A DNA stretch of 64,000 nucleotides from Pseudodonghicola xiamenensis DSM 18339 (GTDB taxonomy: Bacteria; Pseudomonadota; Alphaproteobacteria; Rhodobacterales; Rhodobacteraceae), in contig NZ_AUBS01000003.1 in the NCBI RefSeq assembly GCF_000429365.1, positions 1 through 64,000 on the forward strand, written 5' to 3'. How positions within the stretch are numbered: the first letter of the stretch is position 1; each line of letters starts with the position of its first letter. This document shows positions 3,488-24,186 of this stretch, one piece after another. A program made the position numbers and the translations under genes. Under the pieces are notes generated by a model. It did not search any database and was not told the origin of the DNA. It saw nothing but the letters and a program-made list of their open reading frames with translations.

Positions 3488-4309
3488 ATGTTTCAATACC
3501 GGTCGAACAGTTCGAAGTTCTCCAGCGCCCTGACGATTCTGGAGCTGATCTTCCATTCTGTTGTCCGCCATGTTCGATCGGCACACAGCAACGCCTTCAT
3601 CGCCATTGGCAAGAACATGCTGCAAGTGGTGGTTTTCGTCCTGGCATTCTATCTGATGTTCTCCGTTCTCGGACTGCGCCGGTCTGCCGTGCGGGGCGAC
3701 TTCCTGCTGTACATGATGTCGGGGATTTTCCTCTTCATGTGCCACACCAAGGCGGTGGGCGCCGTCGTCAAGTCCGAGGGGCCCAACCACCCGATGATGC
3801 AGCACGCGCCGATGAATACGGTGATCTCGATTTCCGCTGCCGCGGTCGGATCGCTCTATATCCAGGTGCTGACGATGTTCGTGCTGTTGTTCGGCTATCA
3901 CGTCGCCATCAAGCCGATCACCATCGAGGACCCCGCCGGCGCCTTTGCAATGCTGATGCTGGCCTGGTTCAGCGGCTGCGCGGTCGGGCTGGTGCTGCTG
4001 GCGCTCAGGCCCTGGTTCCCGACGGCCGTCGGCCTGATCTCAACCATCTACCAGCGGGCCAATATGATCGCCTCGGGCAAGATGTTCCTGGCCAACAACT
4101 TGCCCGGCTACATGCTGCCGATCTTTTCCTGGAACCCGCTGTTTCACACCATCGACCAGGCGCGCGGCTATGTTTTCATCAACTACAATCCGATGAATAC
4201 CAATTGGCACTATACGCTCTGGGTCGGGATCGTGCTGACGATGATCGGGCTGATGGGCGAATTCTACACCCGCCGCCATGCCTCGCTGAGCTGGAGCGCG
4301 CGGCGCTGA
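3488..4309 (+). CDS. ABC-2 type permease, capsule/polysaccharide export (KpsM/Wzm-like)
   Basis: Membrane subunit of a polysaccharide ABC exporter. It is 273 residues with about six hydrophobic segments (for example VVFVLAFYLMFSVLG, FLLYMMSGIFLFM, YIQVLTMFVLLFGY, ACAVGLVLLAL-like, TLWVGIVLTMIGLMG). The C-terminal region contains SWNPLFHTIDQARGYVF, typical of ABC-2 permeases of capsule systems. The ATG at 3488 follows an AGGGTGG ribosome site. No ATP-binding partner is adjacent, so the KpsT/Wzt ATPase must be elsewhere. It is transcribed away from cysQ and ends 10 bp before the convergent alkB gene. Confidence 0.82.
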   Translation: MFQYRSNSSKFSSALTILELIFHSVVRHVRSAHSNAFIAIGKNMLQVVVFVLAFYLMFSVLGLRRSAVRGDFLLYMMSGIFLFMCHTKAVGAVVKSEGPNHPMMQHAPMNTVISISAAAVGSLYIQVLTMFVLLFGYHVAIKPITIEDPAGAFAMLMLAWFSGCAVGLVLLALRPWFPTAVGLISTIYQRANMIASGKMFLANNLPGYMLPIFSWNPLFHTIDQARGYVFINYNPMNTNWHYTLWVGIVLTMIGLMGEFYTRRHASLSWSARR

Positions 4310-17793: not shown

Positions 17794-20313
17794 TCAGTCG
17801 AGATTACGCTCGACTTCCTCACGCTCGAAGATTTCGATGACATCGCCGGGGCGAATATCGTCGTAATTCTCGAAGGCCATGCCGCATTCCTGCCCGGACT
17901 GAACTTCAGCCACTTCGTCCTTGAAGCGCTTGAGTGTCTTCAGCGTGCCTTCGTGGATCACCACGTTGTCGCGCAGCAAACGCACCCCGGCAGAGCGACG
18001 CGCCACACCTTCGGTGACCAGACAGCCGGCGACCTTGCCAACGTTGGAAACCTTGAAAACTTCCTTGATCTGGGCGTAACCGATGAAGTTCTCGCGGATC
18101 TCGTTCGACAACAGACCGGAAGCCGCCGCTTTCACGTCATCCACAAGATCGTAGATCACCGAATAATAGCGGATCTCCACACCCTTCTGGTTCGCCGCGC
18201 TGCGTGCCGGCGCATTGGCCCGCACGTTGAAGCCGATGACCGGGGCGCCCGATGCTTCTGCCAGGCCGATATCGGTTTCGGTGATGGCACCAACTCCCGA
18301 ATGCAGCACGCGCACACGCACCTCGTCGTTGCCGACCTTTTCCAGCGCCTGAACGATCGCCTCGGCCGACCCCTGCACATCCGCCTTCACCAGAACCGGA
18401 AGCTCAGAGACGTTTTCGTCGTCCTTGGCCTTCTTCATCAACTGTTCCAGCGTCGTGGCGGCACCGGCGGCAGCGCGTTTTTCCTTGGCCAGGTTTTCGC
18501 GATATTCCGCGATCTCACGGGCCTGCGCCTCGGTATCGACCACGTTCAGAACGTCGCCGGCCTCGGGTGTGCCATTCAGGCCCAGCACCTCGACCGGAAC
18601 CGACGGACCAGCCTCCTGCACTCGATCGCCCTTGTCGTTCACCAACGCCCGAACCTTGCCGTATTGTTCGCCCACGACAAAGATATCGCCTTGGCGCAGC
18701 GTACCGTTCTGCACCAGAACGGTGGCAACCGGACCACGGCCGACGTCAAGCTGCGCCTCGATCACTGCGCCTTCGGCTGCCCGCTTGGGGTTGGCCTTGA
18801 GCTCAAGGATTTCCGCCTGCAGCGCGATGGCCTCCAGCAGGTTGTCCAGCCCCTGGCCGGTGATGGCCGAAACTTCGACATCCTGCACCTCGCCGGACAT
18901 CTTTTCGACCACGACCTCGTATTGCAGCAGCTCGGTGCGCACCTTGTCAGGGTTGGCTTCGGGCTTGTCGACCTTGTTGATCGCCACGATCATCGGCACT
19001 CCGGCCGCCTTGGCGTGGTTGATCGCCTCGATCGTCTGCGGCATGACCGAGTCGTCGGCAGCCACGACCAGAACCACGATATCCGTCACCTGAGCCCCGC
19101 GCGAACGCATCGAGGTAAAGGCGGCGTGGCCCGGCGTATCGAGGAAGGTCAGCACCGCACCACTGTCGGTCTTCACCTGATAGGCGCCGATATGCTGGGT
19201 AATCCCGCCGGCCTCGCCCGTGGTCACGCTGGTGTTGCGAATCGCATCCAGCAACGAGGTCTTGCCGTGGTCGACGTGGCCCATGATGGTAATGACCGGC
19301 GGCCGCGGCTGCAGATCCTCGGGCTTGTCCGCTTCGTGCTGGATCACGTCTTCGACGTCGGCATCCGAAACACGGACGACCTTATGGCCGAATTCCTCGA
19401 TGATCAGCTCGGCGGTATCCGCGTCGATGGACTGGTTTTGCGTGACCATCATGCCCATGTTCATCAGGGCCTTGACCACGTCGGCAACGCGTTCAGCCAT
19501 CCGGTTCGCCAGTTCGCTGACGACGATCGTCTCGGGCAGTTGAACCTCGCGGATGATCTTTTCACGCTCTTGCGTGCCCATGGCCTTCTGCCGCGCCCGC
19601 TCTTGCTTGCGCTTCATCGCGGCCATCGACCGTTGCCGCCCACCTTCGCCACCCGTCAGGGCCTGGTTCAGGGTCAGCTTGCCCGAGCGGCGACCTTCGT
19701 CGCGGGTCTTGCTGCGCGGGGTGCGCGCCTGCTGTTCACGCTCGCGTTCGGACTTGCGCTGCACCGGTTGCTGCGCGGAGGCCGGGGCCTGCTTGGCCGC
19801 GCCCCCACGCGCGCCGTCCGCCTTGCGTTCGGCCGGCTGCTCGGCGGCAGCCGCTGCAGCGGCCGCGGCACGCTTCGCGGCGGCCTCTTCCTCAGCACGC
19901 CGGCGTTCTTCCTCTTCGGCCTTGGCGCGGGCGCGCTCTTCAGCCTCGCGCTGTTCGCGCTCTTTCTGTTCCTTCTCGGCCCGCAGGCGCTCGCGCTCTT
20001 CGGCACGGCGGCGTTCCTCGGCCTCGCGCTCGCGGGCTTCCTCGACCTCACGGGCCTTGGCGGCCTGCAGGGCCTTCAGACGGCGCTCCATCTCCGCATC
20101 GGAGATGCCGGCAGGACGGCGCGACGGATCGCCCGTCCGGGCAGACCCACCGCCGGACGACTTGCCCGCACCCTGCTTGGGCACGACCACACGCTTGCGC
20201 TTGGTCTCCACCACAACGTTCTTGGTCCGCCCGTGGCTGAAGCTCTGTTTCACGTTCCCCGAATGGGAACCCCCACGCAGACCCAGGGTCTTTTTGCCGT
20301 CACTATCGCTCAT
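17794..20313 (-). CDS. infB: Translation initiation factor IF-2
   Basis: GTPase that brings initiator tRNA to the small ribosomal subunit and promotes subunit joining. It is 839 residues. The N-terminal basic region ([20 protein letters not shown]) and the long Ala/Glu/Arg-rich coil at about 75-215 precede the IF2N domain. The G-domain has [12 protein letters not shown] (G1), [11 protein letters not shown] (G3) and [10 protein letters not shown] (G4), followed by beta-barrel and C-terminal domains ending [16 protein letters not shown]. Last gene of rimP-nusA-ylxR-infB; its start is 8 bp after the ylxR stop. Confidence 0.99.
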
Positions 20314-20321
20314 AAAGCTAC

Positions 20322-20942
20322 TTATCCTTCCCGGCGGCCCCTGCCGCCGTCCGTTTCGCGCAACCCGCGCAAGCGTTGCGCTTCCTCTACAACACGTTTG
20401 TCGAGTCCACCAGAGGCGAGCGCCGCATGTATCACAGTTTCACGACCAAAGGCCATGCCTAGTTCGTCTGCGGTAAGCCAACCGATATAATGGCCACGGT
20501 GGGGGGTGGACAGTTTCGACTTCCCCCGCCCGGAGCCGTCAGACGCCTGGATCAACGTCTGAGCTTCTTCCTTGTCGAGCCAGGTCTTGACCTTCTCATA
20601 GCCAGCGACCGCATCCCCCGACTTGCGCGCCATACTGATCAGATCGACCACCCGCCGCGCCAACAATTGCTCGACCTGCCCGGGCAAATCCTCGGGCAGG
20701 TCGACTTTCTGCTTCAGACCGCGCGCGAAAAGGTTCTTCGCCACCGCCTGTTCCAGCGCCGCGCGGGTCGAGGCCACATAGACCCCCCGACCCGGCAACT
20801 TTCCAGCAAGGTCCGGCACCACCTGGCCACCGGGACCTGCCACGAAACGGATCAGCCCATATTTCGGCTGTACCTCGCCCGTGGCGATGCATTTCCGTTC
20901 AGGACCGTCTTCGCGGTCTTTCAAGACGCCACCGCGACCCAT
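20322..20942 (-). CDS. ylxR: YlxR-family RNA-binding protein (DUF448) with L7Ae-like C-terminal domain
   Basis: 206 residues. The N-terminal YlxR domain carries the [19 protein letters not shown] and [12 protein letters not shown] motifs. The C-terminal half ([19 protein letters not shown] onward) looks like the L7Ae/L30e fold often fused to it in alphaproteobacteria. YlxR proteins bind RNA, and one Gram-positive member modulates RNase P; the role here is not known. I chose the ATG at 20942 ([15 protein letters not shown] upstream); a GTG 12 bases earlier is the alternative. Lies between nusA and infB, a conserved arrangement. Confidence 0.9.
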
Positions 20943-20965
20943 GTCAATCCCCACGGGACCGGAGC

Positions 20966-22606
20966 TCAGGCTCCGGCCTCCTCGTTGCCAGCCACTGAGG
21001 CCGGTCCGCCTTCGGCATCTTCCGAGACCTCTTCTTCGGTCTCAAGTTCGGCCGGGTCGACCCACCCAAGCTGAATGCGCGCCGACATGACCATGTTCTG
21101 CGCTTCTTCCAGCGACATGTCGAAGGGCTCCAGAATACCTTCGTCCTTGATCCGTTCGCCGTTCGAAGTGGTCCAGCCACCGGCCAGCTCCCAGTCGGCG
21201 CAGGTGGCGAAGTCTTCCAGCGTCTTGATGCCGTCCTTGGCCAACGCCTCCACCATCTGGGGTGTCAGCCCCTCGAAATCAATGAGGCTGTCCTCGGCCC
21301 CCAGGCTGCGCGCGTTTTCAAGCGCGGCTTTTGCCTGCGCTTCCAGATAATCACGGGCCCGCGCCTGCAGCTCTTCCGCAGTATCCTCGTCCACGCCGTC
21401 GATCACCAGCAGTTCGTCGAGATCGACATAGGCGACCTCCTCAAGGCTGGTGAAGCCTTCCGAAACCAGAAGCTGTGCGAAGAATTCGTCCAGATCGAGC
21501 GTGTCGATGAACAGCTTGGTGCGTGCCTCGAATTCCTTCTGGCGGCGGGCGCTTTCTTCTTCCTCGGTCATGATGTCGATGTCCAGACCGGTCAACTGGC
21601 TGGCCAGACGCACGTTCTGACCGCGACGACCGATTGCCAGCGAAAGCTGTTCCTCGGGCACCACGACCTCGATCTTACCGGCTTCCTCGTCCAGCACAAC
21701 TTTCGACACTTCGGCCGGCTGCAGCGCGTTGACCAGGAAGGTCGGCATATCGTCCGACCACGGAATGATGTCGATCTTTTCGCCTTGCAGTTCGTTCACC
21801 ACGGCCTGCACGCGGCTGCCGCGCATCCCGACACAGGCACCGACCGGGTCGATCGAGTTGTCATAGGACACCACGGCGATCTTGGCGCGCGATCCCGGAT
21901 CACGGGCCACCGCCTTGATCTCGATGATACCGTCATAGATTTCCGGCACTTCCATCTTAAACAGCTCGGCCATGAATTCCGGCGCGGTGCGGCTGAGGAA
22001 GATCTGCGGGCCACGCGGTTCGCGACGCACATCCTTGATGTAGCAACGGATGCGGTCGTTCGGGCGATAGCTTTCGCGGCCGATCTTCTCGTTGCGGCGC
22101 AGGATCGCCTCGCCGGCACCCACGTCGACGATGACGTTGCCGTATTCCTCACGCTTGACGACACCGTTGATGATGCTGCCCTTGCGGTCCTTGAATTCCT
22201 CGTATTGGCGATCACGCTCGGCCTCGCGCACCTTCTGCAGGATCACCTGCTTGGCGCTTTGAGCAGCGATCCGGCCCATTTCAACCGGGGGAACCTCTTC
22301 GACGAATTGATCGCCCACCTGCGGATCGGCCATATATTGCTTGGCCTGCTTGACGGTCATTTCCGCCTGGTAATTCTCCAGGTCGTCATCCTCGACAACG
22401 GTCCGGACCCGAGTGAACGTGGCCTTGCCGGTCTTGCGGTCGATACTGACACGGATGTCCATCTCCGAGCCGTACCGGCTCTTGGCCGCACGCGCGAGCG
22501 ACTCCTCCATCGCCTCAATCACCAGCGACGGGTCGATCATCTTTTCGCGGGCAACCGCCTCGGCGGTTTGCAGCAGCTCAAGCTGGTTTGCGGAAGTGAT
22601 TGCCAT
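20966..22606 (-). CDS. nusA: Transcription termination/antitermination factor NusA
   Basis: RNA-polymerase-binding protein that enhances pausing and intrinsic termination and joins antitermination complexes. It is 546 residues. The N-terminal polymerase-binding domain is followed by S1 (KGSIINGVVKREEYGNVIVD), two KH domains (VGACVGMRGSRVQAVVNEL, LAIGRRGQNVRLASQL) and C-terminal helix-hairpin-helix repeats. ATG at 22606 with AGGAGG seven bases upstream. It shares one base with the rimP stop (TGATG), implying coupling. Confidence 0.98.
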   Translation of the reverse strand: MAITSANQLELLQTAEAVAREKMIDPSLVIEAMEESLARAAKSRYGSEMDIRVSIDRKTGKATFTRVRTVVEDDDLENYQAEMTVKQAKQYMADPQVGDQFVEEVPPVEMGRIAAQSAKQVILQKVREAERDRQYEEFKDRKGSIINGVVKREEYGNVIVDVGAGEAILRRNEKIGRESYRPNDRIRCYIKDVRREPRGPQIFLSRTAPEFMAELFKMEVPEIYDGIIEIKAVARDPGSRAKIAVVSYDNSIDPVGACVGMRGSRVQAVVNELQGEKIDIIPWSDDMPTFLVNALQPAEVSKVVLDEEAGKIEVVVPEEQLSLAIGRRGQNVRLASQLTGLDIDIMTEEEESARRQKEFEARTKLFIDTLDLDEFFAQLLVSEGFTSLEEVAYVDLDELLVIDGVDEDTAEELQARARDYLEAQAKAALENARSLGAEDSLIDFEGLTPQMVEALAKDGIKTLEDFATCADWELAGGWTTSNGERIKDEGILEPFDMSLEEAQNMVMSARIQLGWVDPAELETEEEVSEDAEGGPASVAGNEEAGA

Positions 22607-23196
22607 CACATGTCCTCCTGCGCGGACCCTTCGGTCTCGATTTCGTCAAACTTGTCTTCGTCAAGCTGCCCCGCAGCCTTGCGCTGGCGCAGCATTTCCT
22701 TGATCAGCTCATCGGTCAGCACCAGCTTGGCGTCGCTCAGCCAGTCGAAGTCGAGCCCGATGGTGACCTCCTCGCCATCCTGTTCGAGGTTGATCAGCAC
22801 CTCGTTGCCCTCGATCCCGGCCAGCACCCCCTTGAACCGGCGACGCCCGTCAATCAGCTCAGAGGTCTCAAGCTTGGCCTCATAGCCTTCGAACATGTCG
22901 AAATCCTTCAGCCGGGTCAGCGGCCGGTCGATGCCGGGGCTGGAAACCTCCAGCGTATAGGCATCAATAAGCGGGTCCTCGACATCGAGAACCGCGCTCA
23001 CGGCGTTCGAGATGGCGGCGCAATCGTCCACCTCGATCCCACCCTCGGGGCGGTCGGCCATGATCTGCAGAACGGTGCTCTTGCCGGACATCAGCCGGAT
23101 CCGCACCAGCTCGAACCCCAGATCCTCGATCACCGGGGTGATGATCTCGGCCAGGCGACGGTCGATGGCGGCCTTTGCTATCAGATCGTTGGTCAT
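22606..23196 (-). CDS. rimP: Ribosome maturation factor RimP
   Basis: Assists 30S subunit assembly. It is 196 residues, slightly long through a charged C-terminal tail. The conserved core includes [37 protein letters not shown] and the C-terminal SH3-like [13 protein letters not shown]. The ATG at 23196 gives [14 protein letters not shown] with GGA five bases upstream. The frame is open upstream but carries a terminator-like hairpin, so the longer reading is not real. First gene of the nusA-infB operon. Confidence 0.95.
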
Positions 23197-23208
23197 ATCA
23201 TCCAAACA

Positions 23209-23232
23209 CAAAAAAACGGGCGCGCGGCCCGT
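23209..23232 (-). terminator. Terminator/attenuator immediately before rimP
   Basis: Minus-strand reading: ACGGGC, loop CGCGC, GCCCGT, then a run of T (seven in all counting the stem T). It ends 13 bases before the rimP ATG, leaving no room for a promoter after it. It may end the pip-SBP transcript or act as an attenuator. An upstream GGCGCG (complement of 23272-23277) could pair with CGCGCC of the stem as an antiterminator. Confidence 0.6.
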
Positions 23233-23349
23233 CAGAATTATCCGGTGGTGCCCCGAGCCCAGAGAGCCCGACGCGCCGCTGTTGAGGGGCATATACGCCC
23301 ATAGAGGCGAATCTTCAAGCCCCAAGTCCAGACGCAGGCAGCGGGTGGC

Positions 23350-24186
23350 TTAAGCGAGCCACCAGCGTTCGGCGATGCGGCCATCGTCCAGCGGCGCGCG
23401 CATGCCGATCTTGCGGGGAATACCGACCCCCCGGCGGGCCGCCAGCGCCATATCCTGGGCCGAGGGATGATAGAGGAAATCACCGCGCTCAAGCAACCCG
23501 TCGGGCGCCGGCAGCGCCGCGACATCGACAAAACCGTCGCGCAGGGCCTCGGCGCGCACGGCGGCATCCGGGATCACGATGATTTCAACGCTGTCGGCCC
23601 AGCCGGCCTGCCCTTGCTTGTAATGACCGTCCACCCGGGTGGCCCGGAAATGCCGCCCCTCCTGCGCCCGCTCGACGCGATAGGCGCCGGTGCCGACTGC
23701 CTCGGCCAGGGGCAGATCCAGCGCACCGGCCCGGGCCACGATCCGCTCTGCCGCGGCCAAGCGATAAGGCAGATCGGGATCGCCCTTGACCAGCTCGACC
23801 ACCAGGGTCCGGGGCCGCTCCGCCTCGATCCGGGTGACGCCCGGCACCTCCCAGGCGCGGAAGGAGGCAACGGCATCCTCGATACCCAGCGCACGGCCGT
23901 CGTGAAACGCAACGCCTTCGCGCAGTTCGAACCGCCAACGACGGGCATCGGAACTACCGGTCCAGCTTGCAGCCAGTTCAGGGCGCAGGGCACCGTCGGG
24001 GCCGATTTCGGTCAAGCCGTCGAACATGGCCCCGCGCGCCACCCGATCCAGCGACCCGTCGCGCGGCACCGCCAGGCGCAGATGCCCCCCGGGGCGCGGC
24101 GCCGCGGCCAGAGACACGCCGGAGGCCGCCAGCAACGCGGCAGCGGCACCCGAGGTGAAAAGCGCGCGGCGGTCGATCCGGGTCAT
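23350..24186 (-). CDS. Short SBP_bac_5-type extracellular solute-binding protein
   Basis: Related to peptide/nickel ABC transporter binding proteins but only 278 residues against about 500. A Tat-like signal (RIDRRALFTSGAAAALLAAS) precedes RPGGHLRLAVPRDGSLDRVA, the usual family N-terminus. WRFELREGVAFHDGRALGIE is also typical. The C-terminal lobe is mostly missing, so ligand closure is doubtful. No permease genes are adjacent. The start overlaps the pip stop by 4 bp (ATGA). Whether this is a conserved short form or a truncated gene cannot be told from one sequence. Confidence 0.78.
   Translation of the reverse strand: MTRIDRRALFTSGAAAALLAASGVSLAAAPRPGGHLRLAVPRDGSLDRVARGAMFDGLTEIGPDGALRPELAASWTGSSDARRWRFELREGVAFHDGRALGIEDAVASFRAWEVPGVTRIEAERPRTLVVELVKGDPDLPYRLAAAERIVARAGALDLPLAEAVGTGAYRVERAQEGRHFRATRVDGHYKQGQAGWADSVEIIVIPDAAVRAEALRDGFVDVAALPAPDGLLERGDFLYHPSAQDMALAARRGVGIPRKIGMRAPLDDGRIAERWWLA

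Follow-up and report, generated by a model that had tools for sequence, protein, structure and literature searches.

A probable transcription attenuator before rimP-nusA-infB, with a 5' hairpin kept across an alphaproteobacterial family

The leader of rimP has been termed the most ubiquitous transcription attenuator (PMC2965389). In the sections of that paper used here, Naville and Gautheret (2010) propose NusA as the regulator of the rimP-leader and place its terminator 4-130 nt before the gene; the general form is described there as having neither a visible antiterminator nor a larger conserved element. Some Gammaproteobacteria, with tandem terminators and a potential antiterminator, are the exception (PMC2965389). 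In B. subtilis, NusA is autoregulated through NusA-stimulated termination in the leader (Mondal et al. 2016, as summarized in the review PMC12288461), and the E. coli protein represses its own operon (PMC6511841; PMC2965389), which is induced on cold shock (PMC6511841). Judging by the cited parts of these papers, the rimP-leader reading seems to have been little explored beyond these two species. Among the literature matches listed, which were largely titles and the starts of abstracts, there was no account of the leader described below in Rhodobacterales. A small RNA survey of R. pomeroyi, in the portion cited, left out regions resembling 5' UTRs (PMC4809877), so a product of this leader could have been missed there.

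The present leader is a new, family-wide variant of this already known and little-studied attenuator. It is the 5' leader of a rimP-nusA-infB operon and shares with the rimP-leader, as outlined in PMC2965389, the GGGc...gCCC stem with its U-run and a distance between terminator and gene (13 nt) that falls within 4-130 nt. Unlike the published form, as far as it is described there, it comprises a leader of ~75 nt with a 5' hairpin (P1), plus a putative antiterminator formed by the 5' end in the core clade, and it is kept across an alphaproteobacterial family. Like the B. subtilis nusA leader, it places a terminator upstream of an operon that encodes NusA; in the account of B. subtilis cited above stimulation by NusA was demonstrated, whereas here the likeness is one of leader terminator and gene content alone, and the B. 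subtilis rimP leader is given as 180 nt (PMC2965389) against about 88 nt here. The layout also resembles that of E. coli metY-rimP-nusA-infB, where the terminators t1 and t2 stand upstream of rimP, although the E. coli leader, compared by its description in the cited part of PMC6511841, has the tRNA gene metY upstream, together with sites for RNase III. Rfam gave no family at the gathering score at this locus, the matches to suhB and P26 being at chance level (E above 5). The covariance model RF01770 (rimP), with which the leader shares family name and gene context, had no match at the locus and a single sub-threshold hit elsewhere in the genome (E 7.66). The leader thus supplies an RNA family that is absent from Rfam.

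In the window (the whole stretch of 64,000 nucleotides that was analysed), the minus strand carries an SBP-like gene that ends at 23350 and, after a gap of 153 nt, rimP (22606-23196), nusA (20966-22606, the start being 22609 with GTG in the open reading frame list), a ylxR-like gene (DUF448, 20322-20954), and infB (IF2, 17794-20313). Pfam domains identify rimP, the first gene of the operon (RimP_N, 4.2e-26; RimP C-terminal domain, 1.2e-10), nusA, the candidate feedback factor (NusA_N, 4e-34; KH_5, 5.2e-29), the ylxR-like gene (YlxR, 2.1e-23), and infB (IF-2, 2e-42). Two of the three upstream genes were scanned and matched SBP_bac_5 and alpha/beta hydrolase; pip and ubiG are candidate names for the upstream genes, in part taken over from the earlier note. 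The rimP frame stays open in the 5' direction over 23325-23197 (minus strand), up to a TTG at 23325, so that automatic annotation could wrongly run rimP through its own leader.

A terminator hairpin with the GGGC...GCCC signature is located at 23215-23233 on the minus strand. Read from 23233 to 23215, the stem is GACGGGC/GCCCGTT around the loop CGCGC; its 3' side reaches the first two bases of a run of seven T (23210-23216), and 13 bases (23209-23197) separate the T-run from the rimP ATG at 23196. A terminator scan is weak by itself, since it lists three sites of this shape in 2 kb where 1.2 (sd 1.0) would be expected; conservation decides. For this purpose an alignment, A1, of 79 columns was used, which holds 81 leaders, namely those of the 80 nearest of 518 rimP loci in the GTDB genome collection and that of the window. 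In the wider set of loci used further below, genome G022 is present twice (L089, L202), and L155 was left out as the leader pattern had no match there. The stem columns 54-59/65-70 are paired in 81/81 leaders, which confirms the intrinsic-terminator shape 13 bases before the ATG that had been reported in the earlier note. Except for its outermost pair the stem is invariant, which makes it uninformative on covariation. From the end of the T-run to the start codon used, the distance ranges from 10 to 101 nt across the 81 leaders, the 13 nt of the window included. Straight after the T-run, and thus beyond the terminator, a GTG (23209-23207, minus strand) is kept in nearly all 81 leaders; it may perhaps serve pausing or release at the terminator.

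The earlier note had seen no space for a promoter between terminator and rimP, which is correct; it had missed a promoter-like site upstream of the terminator, at 23290-23318 on the minus strand. This site consists of TTGAAG (23318-23313), a spacer of 17 nt, and TATATG (23295-23290). It has 8/12 consensus matches in the window and did not reach the cut-off of the consensus scan, which listed no promoter since the site does not have the T that the scan requires. The motif TTG[CA]-17-TATA is spaced by exactly 17 nt in 81/81 leaders (80 loci and the window), and its TATA begins 11-13 nt 5' of the first conserved leader base. Because this promoter-like site stands upstream and the leader is kept where the upstream genes differ, the comparison places the terminator within rimP's own leader, of roughly 88 nt from a start placed by inference.

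The conserved leader RNA extends over 23207-23284 (minus strand), through the T-run and the GTG, with its putative start within a few nt of 23284. This block is conserved before rimP in 80/80 loci of the relatives, and its order in A1 is CAACAGCGG, a variable hairpin, CCACCGG in most leaders, the terminator, and TTTTTTTGTG. Without constraint, RNAalifold folds the consensus of A1 into a pair of hairpins, of which P1 takes up columns 8-39 and the terminator columns 53-71. P1, of the form GG.GC.(stem)..GC.CC, lies at 23247-23277 (minus strand) and would act as an anti-antiterminator, as it occupies most of the antiterminator 5' strand. Identical leaders were collapsed for the covariation, duplex, shuffle, 5'-folding, and likelihood tests. 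P1 has 75 double-change cells against 35.3 (sd 5.3) after shuffling and 11-16 in slid controls. Eight of its pairs have a double change, against 6.6 after shuffling, a number reached in 74/500 shuffles. On a tree built from the downstream coding DNA, pairs 11-36, 15-31, 16-30, and 17-29 co-change (p<0.02), and the other four variable pairs have no excess. The folding of the first 44 nt is unimpressive when compared with shuffles (mean z -0.94, 126 distinct leaders), and P1 accordingly rests on covariation, not on stability. That covariation is clearly strong in the aligned leaders. Most leaders keep the ACCG and the 5' AACAGCGG, both of which are largely unpaired in the consensus fold; the ACCG is altered in L004-L009 and closes P1 in L177. 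In many leaders, L015, L173, and L180 among them, UCCA/CCA-type segments occur twice, in the P1 loop (GUCCAMA) and near CUCCACCGG, and may possibly represent a doubled protein-binding site.

The antiterminator would pair a 5' strand at 23268-23279 (A1 columns 6-17, mostly also part of P1) with a 3' strand at 23224-23235 (columns 51-62), both on the minus strand; the latter runs from the foot of the terminator through its ascending arm into the loop. Here, GCGGC.CGUCG of the 5' end faces CGACG.GCCGC in the ascending arm, interrupted by a single G/G mismatch at columns 11/57, and an invariant GCGG in the 5' strand is opposite an invariant CCGC in the terminator. Columns 6-7 have partners in the antiterminator alone, namely columns 61-62 in the loop of the terminator, while the 3' arm of P1 occupies columns 28-36. 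In A1, 91.4% of the cells of this helix pair. Double-change cells number 22 against 11.5 (sd 3.2) in shuffles, 20 of them at columns 15-53; there is no excess in the number of antiterminator pairs with a double change (2 vs 1.5; 243/500 shuffles) or in their pair types (8; 265/500 shuffles). Duplexes of cognate 5' ends and arms have a mean energy of -18.17 kcal/mol against -16.86 (sd 0.15) for reassorted ones (125 distinct pairs), and none of 2000 permutations had a mean below -17.36 kcal/mol. For the 5' end of the window, the cognate arm comes 47th among the 125, and the window therefore adds little to this case. When compared with shuffled 5' segments, the mean z is -2.33 and 57% of 136 distinct leaders have p<=0.05; the counts given so far for the antiterminator ignore ancestry.

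Tests on the tree focused on columns 15 and 53. Simple co-change amounted to 5 events, each of them from C-G to U-A, where 2.56 were expected (p=0.076); among the comparison columns, the unrelated pair 15 with 2 gave p=0.0475. A likelihood test of correlated evolution gave LR 17.6 (p=0.0015, 123 leaders); the four main combinations were C/G (46), U/A (34), U/G (27), and, as the rarest, C/A (9), which alone among them does not pair. Six comparison column pairs reached LR 2.2-10.2, two with p about 0.04, so this test is somewhat liberal. Columns 31 and 53 also co-change (8 vs 3.4, p=0.0065); column 15 has both as partners, 31 in P1 and 53 in the antiterminator, and such a co-change would follow if a single base took part in two helices that exclude each other. 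In divergent leaders, only 2/29 have p<=0.05 when 5' segment and arm are compared by the shuffle test, and the cognate ranks of L172, L180, L183, L188, L193, and L194 are 86-124 of 125. In several of them the terminator loop nevertheless complements the 5' end, as in L186 (ACAGCGG/CCGCUGU; cognate rank 1 of 125) and in L174, which has ACAGG/CCUGU, with both sides unlike the core form (rank 4 of 125). The comparison of leaders across Rhodobacterales that the earlier note had suggested thus yields strong covariation for P1, moderate covariation for the antiterminator, and an uninformative, invariant terminator stem. As the antiterminator is mostly weak in divergent family members, its family-wide presence is regarded as unproven; in the core clade it is supported, short of proof.

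The earlier note had proposed an attenuator with another alternative fold, in which GGCGCG, correctly identified as the complement of 23272-23277, pairs with CGCGCC in the terminator (columns 8-13 with 62-67). The anatomy of an attenuator is supported; the named pairing is not supported, and the helix between 5' end and ascending arm covaries in its place. In GGCGCG/CGCGCC, 93.3% of cells pair, but no cell is changed on both sides, there is no excess over shuffles, and pair 11/64 is broken in 15/75 distinct leaders. Forced folding of the 81 leaders gave means of -24.7 kcal/mol for the terminator state, -23.3 for the antiterminator, and -23.6 for GGCGCG/CGCGCC, which is thus energetically possible and was dropped for absent covariation. 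The antiterminator state lies below the terminator state in 31/81 leaders, the terminator being favoured in 50/81; GGCGCG/CGCGCC lies below it in 39/81. As long as the descending arm has yet to be transcribed, the antiterminator is favoured over P1 in 68/81 nascent leaders. By these model energies the leader is near balance, as expected of a switch. Ensemble energies favour the terminator state by a mean of 1.5 kcal/mol at 37 C, which rises to 3.7 kcal/mol at 4 C. Temperature switching was rejected, as cooling is predicted to move the balance slightly, and towards termination, which is opposite to the cold induction of E. coli.

A covariance model of the leader, R1, matches 381/390 genomes sampled from the order and 140/140 genera, all 390 genomes belonging to one family (f1). 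The genome of the window has one strong copy (E 9.5e-22; next 0.2). All 35 strong hits that were fetched adjoin rimP on its upstream side, and the second hits in 12 genomes are weak (22.7-26.3 bits vs 69.8-92.4 for the strong copy). For the nine genomes missed by R1 and 21 weak hits, rimP was fetched by protein and found in 30/30; by eye, all have a terminator and a CAACAGCGG-like 5' end (less so L194, L199, and L200), and among them 28 distinct leaders fold a hairpin within the first 44 nt. Among the genomes inspected, 5' hairpin and terminator are family-wide in sequence. Across the class, R1 matches 36/385 genomes, of which 5 belong to f1 and the 31 others are weak; 4/25 of the fetched weak loci outside f1 are at rimP. 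A mechanical scan finds a GC-rich terminator upstream of rimP at 23/28 loci of other alphaproteobacterial families, mostly of the type GTGGGCC...GGCCCAC. The antiterminator has no general excess in those families (26/28 loci, mean z -0.41, 19% at p<=0.05; in L218, one of these loci, the pattern picked the wrong arm). The terminator is therefore the general element, and the module of P1 and antiterminator seems to be an addition of f1. One rimP leader from another family, L207 (the same region as L096), has CUUCCACCGAAAA, reminiscent of CUCCACCGGAAA in f1, before a GTGGGCC terminator, and is a possible outgroup form.

The model that we prefer is as follows. RNA polymerase would start near 23284, and the first ~38 nt would fold as P1 and sequester the antiterminator 5' strand. 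The GGGC...GCCC hairpin would then form, and a share of the transcripts would end at the T-run; this closed fold probably halts transcription early. Where P1 is opened or outrun, covariation and energies suggest that the 5' end pairs with the ascending arm of the terminator and polymerase enters rimP. The terminator is most likely strengthened by NusA, itself a product of the operon: plentiful NusA would then close the leader and a shortage would open it, over a working range that P1 and the antiterminator would define. Termination would thus be partial, regulated, and driven by NusA. It is highly probable that the leader is a functional transcription attenuator of rimP, and reasonably likely that P1 competes with the antiterminator in the way outlined here. 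By analogy with the related systems, feedback of NusA on the leader is likely, and whether NusA is the main regulator seems to us evenly poised; the whole model, NusA feedback included, is the one that we would on balance choose. The earlier reading was right about the rimP-leader terminator and incomplete in that it overlooked the P1 hairpin and the fit to the published rimP-leader.

Several other explanations were weighed, and the likelihoods given to them are not mutually exclusive. The terminator could merely end the SBP/hydrolase transcript, with rimP reached by read-through or from a start elsewhere. In 48/80 loci the end of an SBP homologue lies no more than ~500 nt upstream of the leader, and the terminator would act as insulation. 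In a tblastn search (E<=1e-5) of ~2.4 kb upstream of the leader, however, 26/80 loci keep the leader without an SBP homologue and 16/80 without homologues of any of the three neighbours (SBP, hydrolase, and methyltransferase), the leader being retained in 80/80. The invariant spacing of the promoter-like site directly upstream (81/81) and the terminators before rimP in other families also argue against this, and the earlier note was justified in holding an upstream-gene-only terminator to be less likely; we consider it very improbable and discarded it on the promoter-like spacing and the neighbour-independent retention. That the leader is coding and rimP translation begins earlier is hardly credible, although the frame is open across the leader in 58/81 cases: leader lengths relative to rimP fall in all three frames (36, 26, 19), and a stop is present in 23/81, which ruled this out. 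A ribosome-mediated attenuator with an ATG-started leader peptide was rejected as well, as an ATG occurs before the terminator in 14/81 leaders only, counting ATG starts alone.

Foremost among the alternatives is an attenuator in which P1 has a role other than competing with an antiterminator. The antiterminator would not be real, P1 would bind a protein or stabilize the RNA, and NusA or another factor would act directly on the terminator. The support for P1 far exceeds that for the antiterminator, the latter is weak in divergent members, and the general rimP-leader is described by Naville and Gautheret (PMC2965389, in the part cited) without a visible antiterminator; the excess of cognate duplexes, the correlated evolution of columns 15 and 53, and the invariant GCGG opposite CCGC speak against it, and we judge it possible, on the unlikely side. 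Rather unlikely, and compatible with the preferred model, is a signal other than NusA (the state of ribosome assembly, RimP, a ribosomal protein, temperature, or a small molecule) that acts via P1 or ACCGG. It would account for the conserved, mostly unpaired ACCG and 5' AACAGCGG, and E. coli has its cold-shock induction (PMC6511841, in part) while the terminator state is more favoured in the cold here. That predicted shift has the opposite direction, however, no Rfam family matches, and ACCG conservation may partly reflect pairing, as in L177, with L004-L009 altering it. The terminated ~75-nt product could instead be a trans-acting small RNA with attenuation as a by-product. It is short, conserved, and terminator-ended, its 5' end is kept, and the genomes whose second hits were inspected have a single strong copy each; for the R. 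sphaeroides dcw cluster, an extended 5' leader with the small RNA UpsM is reported (PMC5089854, in part); the three pairing regions largely explain the conservation and all strong hits checked sit upstream of rimP, which makes this improbable.

A bolder and speculative idea is a bistable, family-wide RNA sensor, in which the 5' end of the transcript would choose between P1 and the terminator arm and a factor other than NusA, or additional to it, would read P1 and ACCGG. If true, it would tie ribosome assembly to the supply of transcription factor and initiation factor, and perhaps release a ~75-nt small RNA. A 75-nt leader with defined, probably competing helices, in a family that has tractable laboratory strains, makes the rimP-leader reading testable by a few point mutations. 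Elsewhere in the window, positions 4052-4204 (minus strand) gave a full-length match to Rfam RF02645 (Cis2_sRNA) at 105.9 bits, an RNA that in Ruegeria pomeroyi is described, in the cited portion of PMC4809877, as antisense to the permease gene of an ABC transporter.
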